Shown here piece by piece: positions 7,547 through 62,391 of a stretch of 64,000 nucleotides of DNA. The number at the start of each line of letters is the position of its first letter. Position 1 is the stretch's first letter. Origin of the DNA: an uncultured Pseudomonadota bacterium (GTDB lineage Bacteria; Pseudomonadota; Gammaproteobacteria; Steroidobacterales; Steroidobacteraceae); NCBI GenBank assembly GCA_903838705.1, contig CAILZL010000018.1, positions 177,537 to 241,536 on the forward strand. The letters are read 5' to 3'. Position numbers and translations under genes: made by a program. The notes under the pieces are model-generated. The model ran no database searches, had not been told where the DNA came from, and worked only from the letters and a program-made list of their open reading frames with translations.

Positions 7547-7641
7547 GGGATCTTCGCTGGCTGGGTGATAATGCAATGTTGCCTATCATGCACCCAAAAT
7601 CCCGGCGTGTTGATCTGCCTCAGCCGGGTTGCAGAGCTGGC

Positions 7642-7669
7642 TTGACGCTCCCGCCTTGCGCGGTAATAC
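7642..7669 (+). promoter_or_regulatory. Promoter of the trp operon
   Basis: TTGACG (7642-7647), a 16-nt spacer and TAATAC (7664-7669) make a good sigma-70 promoter. The expected start is near 7676, only about 3 nt before the leader-peptide ATG at 7679, so the transcript would be leaderless or nearly so. No trp-repressor-like palindrome was recognised over the promoter. Confidence 0.65.
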
Positions 7670-7678
7670 TCACCACCC

Positions 7679-7735
7679 ATGAAGACACGTACACACATCC
7701 TCCCAGACTGCCGCTGGTGGTGGCGCCGCTCATAA
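7679..7735 (+). CDS. trpL: trp operon leader peptide
   Basis: An 18-codon frame too short for the ORF track: MKTRTHILPDCRWWWRRS. Three consecutive Trp codons (TGG x3, 7715-7723) sit just before the stop and overlap the first of a set of alternative RNA hairpins that ends in an intrinsic terminator upstream of trpE. This is the arrangement of classical trp attenuation: when charged tRNA-Trp is scarce the ribosome stalls at the Trp codons and the terminator does not form. No Shine-Dalgarno precedes the ATG, consistent with a leaderless start. Confidence 0.9.
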   Translation: MKTRTHILPDCRWWWRRS

Positions 7736-7829
7736 CGGAGCAGGGCGCTGGGCCCGTGATTTAGCGTGATCTAACGATTTTTGACGACACCAGAACCCAT
7801 CTCCGTGAACTGCCGGGGGTGGGTTTTTT
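7723..7829 (+). promoter_or_regulatory. trp attenuator: alternative hairpins and terminator
   Basis: Segment 1:2 is GCGCC-GCTC (7723-7731) pairing with GAGC-(AG)-GGCGC (7738-7748), covering the end of the leader frame. Segment 3:4 is an 11-bp stem (two G-U pairs) AACCCATCTCC / GGGGGTGGGTT (7794-7804 with 7815-7825, 10-nt loop) running straight into TTTTTT, a strong intrinsic terminator. A 2:3 antiterminator is possible (TGGG 7749-7752 with CCCA 7796-7799, GGAG 7737-7740 with CTCC 7801-7804). Pairings were read by eye; energies were not computed. Confidence 0.85.
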
Positions 7830-7881
7830 GTTGCCTGCTTTTCGGCTTGTATCCGAACTGCACGAACATCAGGAGTTTCAC

Positions 7882-9279
7882 TTGAAGCCGCCATTTGACA
7901 TAGCCGCCGATCTGGATACCCCGGTATCGGCGTATTTGAAGCTGAAGCCGTTCCGGCCGCGCTTTCTGCTGGAAAGCGTAGAAGGTGGCGAACGACTGGC
8001 CCGTTATTCCTTCATCGGCTTTGGCGATTGTCTTGAGGTGCGGCTTGATGCCGCAGGGTTGAAGATCGGGGATCAAATGTTGCCTGCCCCAAGCAATCAG
8101 CAGGAACTGCTCGATGCACTGCGTGGTGCCTTGCAGCGAGCCCCTTTACCGACCCCCAGTATTCCCGGGGTACCCCTGATCGGCGGGCTGGTTGGTGCTT
8201 CGGGGTACGACCTGGTACGTTACTTCGAACGTTTGCCTTCACGTCACAAGAATATTGAAGGTACGCCTGATGCGCACTATCTCGCGCCGCAATCCATGCT
8301 GGTGTTTGACCACCTCACCCGCAGCATGGCCTTGTTGCACGCAGGGTCTGAAGCAGAGCGGCAATCGCTGCGCAAAGAAGTCATACAGGCGTTACGGGGT
8401 GGTATTGCGAGCAATGGCAGGACGGCGAAATTTTCCGAGCCGGTCGCTTCGCTGGGTGAAATGGAATACATGCACGGCGTAAAGCGCGTGCAGGAGTACA
8501 TCGCCGCGGGCGATGTGTATCAGCTGGTGCTGGCATCACGATTCTCCGGGCGCTGTGATCTCGATCCATTTGAAACTTATCGTGCCCTGCGTCTGCTCAA
8601 TCCTTCGCCGTACATGTACTACTGTGATCTCGGTGATCATGTCATTGCCGGCTCTTCTCCTGAAGCACTGGTGCGCATGACTTATGAGAAAGGCGTAGGG
8701 TACGCACAGTTGCGGCCGATAGCCGGTACGCGTCCGCGTGGTCGGGATGAAATACAGGATCTGGCACTGGAAAAAGAATTGCTGGCGGACCCGAAAGAAA
8801 ATGCCGAGCATGTAATGCTTGTGGATCTGGCGCGCAATGATCTGGGTCGAGTGGCCAGAGCGGGCAGCGTGCATGTGGATCCTTACCGCTCAATAGAGCG
8901 CTACAGTCATGTCATGCACATTGTCAGTGGTGTCAAAGGTGAACTGGCGCAGGGCAGGGATGCATTCGATCTGTTCGCTGCTGCATTTCCTGCTGGTACG
9001 CTGGTGGGTTCACCCAAGGTGCGTGCCATGCAGATCATTGATGAACTGGAACCATGCCGGCGTGGGTTTTACGGCGGTACCATCGGCTACTTCGGCAGTA
9101 CCGGCGATATGGATCAGGCCATCACCATTCGCACGCTGGTGTTCAGCGGTGATACCTACAGTTTTCAGGCGGGTGCAGGCATTGTCGCGGACAGCATCCC
9201 GCAAATGGAATATCAGGAAGTGCTTGCCAAGAGCGCTATTCTGCGTCGCGCACTCGCCATGGCGAAGGAGGGTCTGTGA
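7882..9279 (+). CDS. trpE: Anthranilate synthase component I
   Basis: Converts chorismate to anthranilate with TrpG. The track start (GTG 7819) lies inside the attenuator terminator and cannot be right; the in-frame TTG 7882 has AGGAG six bases upstream and gives 465 residues, normal for the family. The N-terminal domain carries the LLES motif (RFLLESVEGG) that binds the feedback inhibitor tryptophan. The chorismate-binding domain has SSPEALVRM, PIAGTRPRG, ENAEHVMLVDLARND and SPKVRAMQIIDELEP. First structural gene of a seven-gene trp operon; its last bases overlap trpG by 4 nt (GTGA). Regulated by attenuation and probably by Trp feedback. Confidence 0.96.
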   Translation: MKPPFDIAADLDTPVSAYLKLKPFRPRFLLESVEGGERLARYSFIGFGDCLEVRLDAAGLKIGDQMLPAPSNQQELLDALRGALQRAPLPTPSIPGVPLIGGLVGASGYDLVRYFERLPSRHKNIEGTPDAHYLAPQSMLVFDHLTRSMALLHAGSEAERQSLRKEVIQALRGGIASNGRTAKFSEPVASLGEMEYMHGVKRVQEYIAAGDVYQLVLASRFSGRCDLDPFETYRALRLLNPSPYMYYCDLGDHVIAGSSPEALVRMTYEKGVGYAQLRPIAGTRPRGRDEIQDLALEKELLADPKENAEHVMLVDLARNDLGRVARAGSVHVDPYRSIERYSHVMHIVSGVKGELAQGRDAFDLFAAAFPAGTLVGSPKVRAMQIIDELEPCRRGFYGGTIGYFGSTGDMDQAITIRTLVFSGDTYSFQAGAGIVADSIPQMEYQEVLAKSAILRRALAMAKEGL

Positions 9280-21840: not shown

Positions 21841-22788
21841 ATGAATCCGGCTCCGGCGCCCAATGTAAGCATCTTTCCCCGCATCACTATTGAGCAGTGG
21901 CGGGCGCTGCTGGCAGTGGTGGAAGTCGGTGGCTATGCCCAGGCTGCGGAGCATCTGCACAAGAGTCAATCTTCAATCACCTATGCGGTGAAGAAGATCG
22001 AGGCCTTGCTCGGGGTGACGGTATTTGAAATTCAGGGTCGCAAGGCCGTGCTGACGAAAACAGGGGAGTTGCTATACCGGCGTGCTCGCGCCCTGTTGCA
22101 GGAGGCCAGCGGTGTGGAGCGGGCGGCGAGCAGATTATCGGCAGGGTGGGAGGCGGAAATAGGCATGGCCGTCGAGCCTCTATTTCCGATGCCCGTGCTG
22201 ATGCAGGCGCTGTCGCTGTTCAATGAGGAAAGTCCGCACACACGCATTGAACTCATCGAATCGGTATTGAGCGGAACTGCAGAGGCATTGCAGCAGGGCA
22301 AGGCCGAGCTGGCGATTTGCGGCACGGTTCCGCAAGGTTATCTTGGCGATGCCCTGATGCCAGTGCTTCTGATTGCAGTGTCCAGTCCGCAACATCCTCT
22401 GCAAACAATAGAGCGCGCACTGACTCAGCATGATCTGCAAACACACCGACAGATGGTGGTGCGTGATAGCGGCGTACATCGCAGTGGTAACGCGTTAACG
22501 CTGGAAGTCATCCAGCGCTGGACGGTCAGCAATATGAGTACTTCTATTGAGGCGGTGTGTCGTGGCTATGGGTTTGCATGGTTTCCGGAAGAGAAAATTC
22601 GCGAAGAGCTGGCGCAGGGTCGTTTGAAAAAACTCAACCTCCGTGAAGGCGGTGTGCGCATGGGAACTCTGTACCTCGTATATTCAGACCGTGAAGCTGC
22701 CGGGCCGGGCGTATTGCGTCTGGCGGAGCTGATCCGCAAACAGGTGGCTATCCAGTGCCCCGGATGTGCGCCAGAAACCATCGTGTAA
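21841..22788 (+). CDS. LysR-family transcriptional regulator
   Basis: 315 residues. The N-terminal winged HTH spans about residues 15-75: QWRALLAVVEVGGYAQAAEHLHKSQSSITYAVKKIEALLGVTVFEIQGRKAVLT. The C-terminal type-2 periplasmic-binding-like effector domain follows, with the usual WxxSNMSTSIEAVCRGYGFAWFPEE segment. Ser residues in the HTH (KSQSSITYAVKKIE) match the LysR recognition helix. Divergent from azoR-pirin, which it probably controls. The effector cannot be predicted. Confidence 0.92.
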   Translation: MNPAPAPNVSIFPRITIEQWRALLAVVEVGGYAQAAEHLHKSQSSITYAVKKIEALLGVTVFEIQGRKAVLTKTGELLYRRARALLQEASGVERAASRLSAGWEAEIGMAVEPLFPMPVLMQALSLFNEESPHTRIELIESVLSGTAEALQQGKAELAICGTVPQGYLGDALMPVLLIAVSSPQHPLQTIERALTQHDLQTHRQMVVRDSGVHRSGNALTLEVIQRWTVSNMSTSIEAVCRGYGFAWFPEEKIREELAQGRLKKLNLREGGVRMGTLYLVYSDREAAGPGVLRLAELIRKQVAIQCPGCAPETIV

Positions 22789-60610: not shown

Positions 60611-60986
<376 letters not shown>

Positions 60987-61051
60987 TTTAAATTCGCTCA
61001 GTGAATTGCCCGGCTGGAAAGGCATCACACCTGTCCAGCCTGAGGTGACAG

Positions 61052-62176
61052 TTATCTCGCTGCGCGGCGTGCCGTGACCGCCTTGCTCAGCAGATCCAGC
61101 ACATATTCAGAATCATCCCAGCCGATACACGCATCGGTGATGCTCTGACCATAGACCAGCTGTGCTGCGTCATCCTTACCCGGTGTGAATTTCTGCGCAC
61201 CGGCTTTCAGATGGCTTTCTACCATTACGCCGAAAATATGTTCTGAACCGCCGCTGATCTGCCCGGCAATGTTGCGTGCTACTTCAAGCTGTTTTTCATG
61301 CTGCTTGCTGCTGTTGGCATGGGAGCAATCCACCATCAGACGCGGCGGCAGTTTGACGGCTTCAAGATCCTTGCATGCGCTGGCCACACTCTCGGCATCG
61401 TAGTTGGGCTTGTTGCCGCCGCGCAGAATGACATGGCAATCCTTGTTGCCGGTCGTAGCCACAATGGCCACCTGACCGTTCTTGTGAATGCTGAGGAAGT
61501 GATGGGGCCGCGCAGCAGATTGAATGGCATCGGTGGCGATACGAATGTTGCCATCTGTGCCATTCTTGAAGCCGATGGGAGCCGACAGACCCGAAGCCAG
61601 CTCACGATGCACCTGACTTTCGGTGGTACGCGCACCGATGGCGCCCCAGCTGATCAGATCACCGATGTACTGCGGCGAGATGGTGTCGAGGAATTCGCCA
61701 CCGGCCGGCAGGCCGAGGCGGTTGATGTCGCTCAGCAGCTGACGCGCAATACGCAGACCTTCATCAATGCGATAACTTTCATCCAGGCCCGGGTCATTGA
61801 TCAGTCCCTTCCAGCCCACCGTGGTGCGCGGTTTCTCGAAGTACACGCGCATGACAATTTCCAGCGTATCCGCATATTGCGCACGTTGTGCGCGCAGCTT
61901 GTGCGCATATTCCATTGCAGCAGCAGGATCATGAATCGAGCAGGGGCCGATGATCACCAGCAGGCGGTCATCCTTGCCGTTCATGATGTGCTTGATGTTC
62001 TGCCGTGTGGTGGTGATCAGGGTTTCCACGGTAGTGCCGCGAACCGGAAAGAAGCGCAGCAGATGTTCAGGCGGCGGCAACGGGCGCACTTCCTTGATCC
62101 GCTCATCGTCGGTCGGGCCGGTCTTGTCGATCGGCGCAATCCAGCCGTCGGCGGCACTGGTGGATTTGGTGGTCAT
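61052..62176 (-). CDS. 3-deoxy-7-phosphoheptulonate (DAHP) synthase, class I
   Basis: 374 residues from ATG 62176, with CAGGAGATCGTG upstream; the track start adds eight residues. Condenses PEP and erythrose-4-P, the first shikimate-pathway step. AroF/AroG/AroH family motifs: LLVIIGPCSIHDPAAAMEYA, MRVYFEKPRTTVGWKGLINDP, GGEFLDTISPQYIGDLISWGAIGARTTESQ, GFKNGTDG and LMVDCSHANSSKQH. Which isoform, and its feedback inhibitor, cannot be assigned by eye; Glu/Asp/Cys metal ligands are present. It is preceded by an attenuator with a Phe/Tyr/Trp-rich leader peptide, so expression follows aromatic amino acid supply. Confidence 0.96.
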   Translation of the reverse strand: MTTKSTSAADGWIAPIDKTGPTDDERIKEVRPLPPPEHLLRFFPVRGTTVETLITTTRQNIKHIMNGKDDRLLVIIGPCSIHDPAAAMEYAHKLRAQRAQYADTLEIVMRVYFEKPRTTVGWKGLINDPGLDESYRIDEGLRIARQLLSDINRLGLPAGGEFLDTISPQYIGDLISWGAIGARTTESQVHRELASGLSAPIGFKNGTDGNIRIATDAIQSAARPHHFLSIHKNGQVAIVATTGNKDCHVILRGGNKPNYDAESVASACKDLEAVKLPPRLMVDCSHANSSKQHEKQLEVARNIAGQISGGSEHIFGVMVESHLKAGAQKFTPGKDDAAQLVYGQSITDACIGWDDSEYVLDLLSKAVTARRAAR

Positions 62177-62224: not shown

Positions 62225-62255
62225 AAAAAAAAACCGCCGGTGTGTCCGGCGGTTT
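62225..62255 (-). terminator. Attenuator terminator of the DAHP synthase gene
   Basis: On the minus strand AAACCGCCGG-ACACA-CCGGCGGTTT (perfect 10-bp stem, 5-nt loop) runs into a T-run of about nine. It lies between the leader-peptide stop (62280) and the DAHP synthase start (62176), the position of an attenuator. Upstream GGTTT (next to the leader stop) and GGCGG could pair with its 5' arm as an antiterminator; that part is tentative. Confidence 0.9.
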
Positions 62256-62279: not shown

Positions 62280-62354
62280 CTACACGCTCGTTTCCCCGCC
62301 GCCTGCACGGTGCGAGAACCAGAAGTAGCGATAGAAGCAGAAAGCCGTATTCAT
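62280..62354 (-). CDS. Aromatic-rich leader peptide of the DAHP synthase gene
   Basis: A 24-codon frame missed by the ORF track (the listed 62197-62391 ORF is another frame). It begins MNTAFCFYRYFWFSHR: seven of residues 5-13 are Phe, Tyr or Trp (4 Phe, 2 Tyr, 1 Trp). It ends in TAG 25 nt before the terminator stem. A ribosome short of Phe-, Tyr- or Trp-tRNA would stall here, as in the pheA leader of E. coli. No Shine-Dalgarno is seen and the predicted transcript start falls on the ATG itself. Confidence 0.87.
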   Translation of the reverse strand: MNTAFCFYRYFWFSHRAGGGETSV

Positions 62355-62360
62355 GGCTGC

Positions 62361-62391
62361 AATCTACCATGCCACCTGACCCGGCCGTCAA
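62361..62391 (-). promoter_or_regulatory. Promoter of the DAHP synthase leader
   Basis: Minus-strand TTGACG (62391-62386), 19-nt spacer, TAGATT (62366-62361). The spacer is long and the -10 matches four of six consensus bases. The ATG of the leader is 7 nt past the -10, where transcription would begin. The -35 hexamer is identical to that of the trp promoter. Confidence 0.5.

Follow-up and report, generated by a model that had tools for sequence, protein, structure and literature searches.

Attenuators of biosynthetic operons depend on a short leader peptide, and the trp locus studied here raises the question of where its ribosome enters the RNA. In the textbook attenuator the ribosome is recruited by a Shine-Dalgarno (SD) site that lies tens of nucleotides from the 5' end, and a pause keeps ribosome and polymerase in step. 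An earlier note on the window (the whole analysed stretch of 64,000 nucleotides, to which the coordinates below refer) had proposed that both attenuator leaders found in it, trpL and the leader of a DAHP synthase gene, are leaderless, and that this is a design feature of attenuation here. We consider it very likely that these are ribosome-dependent transcription attenuators with the leader-peptide ORF placed at the extreme 5' end of the RNA. The basis of this reading is the juxtaposition of promoter and ATG, the lack of an SD, the control codons, the alternative helices of the trp leader and their conservation, as found in the sequence and by comparison with relatives.

Promoters and start codons of the two leaders

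The trpL boxes TTGACG and AATACT (Table 1) are 17 bp apart and form a sigma70-type promoter with a non-consensus -10 box; 8 nt separate this box from the start codon, in the sequence CACCACCC-ATG. Standard spacing from this promoter places the predicted +1 near 7677, 2 nt ahead of the ATG at 7679, close to the earlier estimate of about 3 nt. The spacer of the DAHP leader promoter is long (19 bp), which the TG extension partly compensates, and GCAGCC-ATG follows its -10 box; the same -10 arrangement was detected in the same-genus relatives L032 and L033. The predicted +1, again by standard spacing, is 62354, which is the A of the ATG, exactly as had been claimed. No SD was detected upstream of either leader ATG, the longest match in the region -20 to -4 being GGT for both, in agreement with the earlier note. 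An in-frame stop (TAA for trpL, TAG for the DAHP leader) overlaps each -10 box, which leaves neither predicted transcript with an in-frame start further upstream. A DUF1003 protein (PF06210, 6854-7570, minus strand) is encoded divergently next to trpL.

Table 1. Features of the trp and DAHP synthase leader regions (window coordinates)
Feature	Position	Strand	Evidence or remark
trpL promoter -35 box TTGACG	7642..7647	+	sequence, promoter scoring, relatives
trpL promoter -10 box AATACT	7665..7670	+	overlaps in-frame stop TAA 7664-7666
trpL leader peptide ORF MKTRTHILPDCRWWWRRS, then stop	7679..7735	+	no SD; predicted leaderless, 5' UTR 0-4 nt
Tandem Trp control codons (n=3), TGGTGGTGG	7715..7723	+	sequence
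Segments 1:2, protector hairpin GCGCCGCTC/GAGCAGGGCGC	7723..7748	+	sequence, folds
Segment 2 of antiterminator ACGGAGCAGGGCGCTGG	7735..7751	+	fold, alignment of relatives
Segment 3 CCAGAACCCATCTCCGT	7790..7806	+	pairs with segment 2 (antiterminator) or segment 4 (terminator)
trp intrinsic terminator AACCCATCTCCG...GGGGGTGGGTTTTTT	7794..7831	+	pair conservation in relatives
trpE, anthranilate synthase component I	7882..9279	+	TTG start, SD AGGAG 7871-7875; followed by trpG, trpD
DAHP leader promoter -35 box TTGACG	62386..62391	-	sequence, promoter scoring
DAHP leader -10 box TAGATT with TG extension (TGG-TAGATT)	62361..62366	-	6 nt to ATG; overlaps in-frame TAG
DAHP synthase leader peptide ORF MNTAFCFYRYFWFSHRAGGGETSV, then stop	62280..62354	-	Phe/Tyr/Trp-rich, no SD, predicted leaderless
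DAHP leader intrinsic terminator AAACCGCCGGACACACCGGCGGTTT, then T-run	62231..62255	-	sequence, fold
aroFGH-type DAHP synthase gene	61052..62176	-	TIGR00034, 534 bits (cut-off 173); PF00793

The attenuator RNAs

The predicted protector, antiterminator and terminator make up a conserved and classical trp attenuator. A leader ORF with tandem Trp codons precedes the operon, whose trpE was identified by profile search (TIGR00564 as the top match, under its cut-off; Pfam PF04715 and PF00425), and the terminator is accompanied by a mutually exclusive antiterminator, in which ACGGAG..GGG..CTGG (7735-7751) pairs with CCAG..CCC..CTCCGT (7790-7806). When the leader RNA is folded without its last arm (segment 4), the antiterminator forms. 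In an alignment of 64 distinct rows, 94.9% of the terminator pair cells are standard with 33 double changes, and for the antiterminator core helix CGGAG/CTCCG the values are 87.5% and 10 double changes, with the GGG/CCC extension in 61/64 rows. Pairing in both helices is clearly above that of slid controls, while some slid controls are not exceeded by the antiterminator covariation count alone. Window 7600-7900 was not matched by the Rfam model Trp_leader (RF00513), even with E values up to 5 admitted.

The DAHP synthase gene is likewise preceded by an aromatic-codon leader and a terminator, the arrangement of an attenuator, and a GGCGG/CCGCC pairing suggests a putative antiterminator. Rfam gave leader matches for this region, all of them sub-threshold. 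Seven DAHP leaders were detected among the relatives, and in 7/7 a distance of 6-10 nt separates the -10 element from the start codon; two of these seven promoters (L035, L037) score poorly. Elsewhere in the window, class A RNase P RNA (Rfam RF00010, 328 bits) was found at 60612-60987 on the plus strand, partly overlapped by a listed ORF.

Conservation of the trpL layout in relatives

The trpE upstream regions were taken from 30 related genomes and from named records, with labels including Steroidobacteraceae, Nevskiaceae and Woeseiaceae plus many MAGs. A Trp-rich leader ORF precedes trpE in 80/86 loci, a count in which a few records occur in both sets (e.g., L002 and L047) and the relatives are not independent. 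For 77 of the 80 leaders, the single top-scoring promoter of the 150 nt examined has its end 6-11 nt ahead of the start codon; where several ATGs were in frame, the promoter-adjacent one was preferred. The gaps are 6 nt (19 leaders), 7 nt (21), 8 nt (18), 9 nt (12), 10 nt (5) and 11 nt (2), and the promoter spacing in these 77 is 15-18 bp, mostly 17-18. The three leaders outside the pattern (L026, L029, L059) have their best-scoring promoter elsewhere.

All 77 near-promoter relatives share the TTG of the -35 box, the A and the C of TTGAC are each present in 67/77, and the commonest -10 box is NATACT (57/80). Upstream of the -35 box the bases are near random across the relatives, a pattern that speaks against another conserved promoter. 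The SD core (GGAG, GAGG or AGGA) was absent from the SD window of all 80 trpL leaders (0/80) versus 40/80 trpE starts, a trpE count favoured by taking the best of several possible starts. The -1 base of trpL is a pyrimidine in 55/77 relatives, and in 33/77 no purine at start-site distance precedes the A of the ATG.

In a sub-group (L052, L058, L061, L062, L065, L068, L070) the trpE upstream region has TTGTAT-N17/18-TAGGCT instead of TTGACG-NATACT; the promoter sequence differs and the 6-7 nt gap to the ATG is kept. In L098, L100, L101, L102 and L117, which are labelled as Planctomycetaceae/Planctomycetota, Acidimicrobiia, Acidobacteria and Lentisphaeria MAGs, trpE is also preceded by a Trp-rich leader whose promoter lies 7-10 nt ahead of the start codon; either leaderless trpL would be much more widely distributed or some of these labels are wrong.

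Among trpL-like leaders of other gammaproteobacterial families in a class-wide sample, the best promoter is near the ATG in 2/18, versus 77/80 in the relatives (Fisher p = 1.5e-13, with relatives that are non-independent and control leader calling that is noisier). The E. coli K-12 leaders thrL, trpL, leuL, hisL, pheL and ilvL have gaps of 25-110 nt, and 0/6 share the layout. A phylum-wide sample gave no convincing trpL in the 45 upstream regions scanned.

A third leader and other operons

A third predicted leaderless leader, MRNHQQPMCSLPRRGRSLLGARLHLRR, was detected on another contig of the genome (G000:C11, ATG at about 56501, minus strand; locus L279 / L417), with the promoter TTGCAT-18-TAGATT-6-ATG. 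The gene behind it is a second 2-isopropylmalate synthase (leuA) of the TIGR00970/PRK03739 type. The leader is kept in the genus, relatives L273, L274, L283 and L285 have LLLL-type versions with the same layout, and the layout is common to this genome and most relatives scanned. We regard it as a candidate leuL; leucine codons are sparser within the genus of the window, and no clear intrinsic terminator was found by folding for the second-leuA leader. Within the genus, conservation includes the C-terminal residues GARLHLRR of the peptide and a short hairpin located at its stop codon (TGCGTCGCTAGACGCA).

No convincing family-wide leader was detected in the sampled relatives before ilvB, hisG, the ordinary leuA, pheA or pheS, and the fetched flank barely covers the upstream region of thrA. 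Leucine-rich leaders before the ordinary leuA of the more distant L252, L269 and L270 are few and ambiguous: that of L270 is possibly leaderless (GATACT, gap 6) or not, and that of L269 has a gap of 24. The statement about attenuators here thus covers three types only, trp, DAHP and second leuA.

Chance level and ordinary genes

Sigma70-like promoters were scored 4-10 nt before every ATG of the 241,536-bp contig that contains the window, on both strands; the weights are E. coli-like values and ORF starts were guessed, which makes the contig figures approximate. Seven of 9,799 ATGs score at least as high as the trpL promoter and 4/9,799 at least as high as the DAHP leader promoter, and both leaders rank among the highest-scoring intergenic ATGs of the contig. 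A comparable promoter-on-ATG layout is present in 1/108 operon-first ORFs versus 3/3 leaders found, a crude null with guessed starts and ATG only. One candidate leaderless ordinary gene is a LysR-family ORF (315 aa) at window 21841 on the plus strand, with TTGAAA-16-TCTAAT and the ATG 8 nt on.

Taken together, the layout of the trpL, DAHP and second-leuA leaders and its scarcity among operon-first genes bear out these parts of the earlier proposal, and there is good support for the predicted leaderless layout being a trait of attenuation that the lineage has conserved. Initiation on 70S ribosomes and the matching kasugamycin resistance, which the earlier note also raised, would be a further possibility.

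Proposed mechanism and rival explanations

The actual +1, leaderless initiation and stalling behaviour we infer as follows. RNA polymerase would start 0-4 nt before the leader AUG, and a ribosome would bind the leaderless AUG once the 5' end of the nascent RNA is exposed and translate toward the tandem control codons. With scarce charged tRNA-Trp (Phe/Tyr/Trp for the DAHP gene), the ribosome would stall on these codons and cover segment 1, allowing segment 2 to pair with segment 3 as the antiterminator, and trpEG... or the aro gene would be transcribed. With ample charged tRNA, the ribosome would reach the stop codon and block segment 2, and the 3:4 terminator would form; if no ribosome is loaded, 1:2 would form and the terminator would form too. 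The contrast with E. coli would lie in the ribosome entry point, the AUG being at, or a few nucleotides from, the 5' end.

A normal 5' UTR, with the real promoter further upstream and TTGAC...ATACT acting as an operator or a minor promoter, seems quite improbable. It fits the few relatives whose best-scoring promoter is elsewhere (L026, L029, L059), and +1 is a prediction here, but the good sigma70 hexamers at 15-18 bp in 77/80, the unconserved 5' sequence, the missing SD core and the in-frame stops that overlap the -10 boxes of trpL and of the DAHP leader all speak against it. The notion that the motif is a TrpR-like operator and no promoter was also dropped, as neither a palindrome nor upstream conservation is visible. 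Still harder to credit, and in our view very improbable, are decoy peptides whose ATGs are weakly or never initiated, with a different regulator at work, such as a protein that binds the leader RNA. The leaders do lack an SD and their translation is predicted, yet Trp codons, short leader ORFs and the protector, antiterminator and terminator are jointly conserved in relatives with divergent TrpE, as expected if a ribosome reads them.

Leaderless transcripts could also be simply common in the lineage, and leaderless leader peptides would then have no special meaning. Zheng et al. 2011 (PMC3160421) describe leaderless genes in some Gammaproteobacteria, mostly in Xanthomonadales and Legionellales, with a mean of 4.5% over 15 genomes, and the LysR gene at 21841 also looks leaderless. 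We consider this explanation unlikely given the one operon-first gene in 108 against all three leaders found, crude as that null is.

Beyond the predicted position of the leader at the 5' end, we hold it quite possible, as a tentative view, that leaderless loading is a selected attenuator design and not a by-product; it would have been retained in trp, aromatic and leucine leaders throughout a deep lineage of Gammaproteobacteria in which ordinary genes are seldom leaderless, in parallel to Actinobacteria and Rhizobiales. If so, a leader AUG at +1 would give the ribosome immediate access to the emerging 5' end. At least two operons, and probably three, of a large gammaproteobacterial group appear to have their leader start codon at +1, and leaderless and leadered trpL within one class, with similar logic, offer a natural contrast for the coupling of the first ribosome to the polymerase. 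Leader-peptide annotation also becomes possible in genomes whose leader ORFs escape Rfam models and SD-based gene finders.

Comparison with known systems

The E. coli trp attenuator has tandem Trp codons, a 1:2 protector, a 2:3 antiterminator and a 3:4 terminator, and the trp leader of the window appears to follow the same regulatory logic. The E. coli trpL ATG, however, lies 33 nt after the -10 box with AAGG upstream, whereas the distance in the window is 8 nt and there is no SD.

Leaderless attenuator peptides as such are already known. In Sinorhizobium meliloti the trpL transcript begins at the AUG, and trpL (rnTrpL, peptide peTrpL) is translated according to Ribo-seq (PMC7298713, PMC10117765). 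The likeness to our trp leader includes the trp attenuator, the tandem Trp codons and the start at the leader AUG, predicted here; S. meliloti differs in being an alphaproteobacterium with a trpE(G) operon, and its released attenuator RNA and peptide act in trans. By referring to this species, the earlier note implied a rarity that is overstated, as leaderless leaders also occur in Streptomyces lividans, Corynebacterium glutamicum, Corynebacterium diphtheriae and mycobacteria. For this gammaproteobacterial group, our literature search, which included few subscription papers, found no report of leaderless attenuators that are multi-operon and lineage-wide.

In the ilvBNC attenuator of C. glutamicum, +1 is one nucleotide off the start codon of ilvL, which has no ribosome binding site, and mutation of the IlvL start codon lowers expression (PMC11857589). 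The leaders studied here resemble it in the missing ribosome binding site and, by prediction, in a transcript start at or next to the leader AUG; the C. glutamicum system serves branched-chain amino acid (BCAA) control and belongs to another phylum. The C. diphtheriae ilvB leader is reported to be leaderless (PMC5784534), and polycysteine uORFs of mycobacteria are leaderless according to a title cited in PMC13236596. In S. lividans trpL1/2, leuL1/2, ilvL, metL and thrL are leaderless (PMC8079986), so that several leaderless attenuator leaders occur in one genome, as is predicted here; S. lividans differs in belonging to the Actinobacteria, with about 17% of its primary TSS leaderless, whereas the ordinary genes of the lineage studied here seem rarely so.
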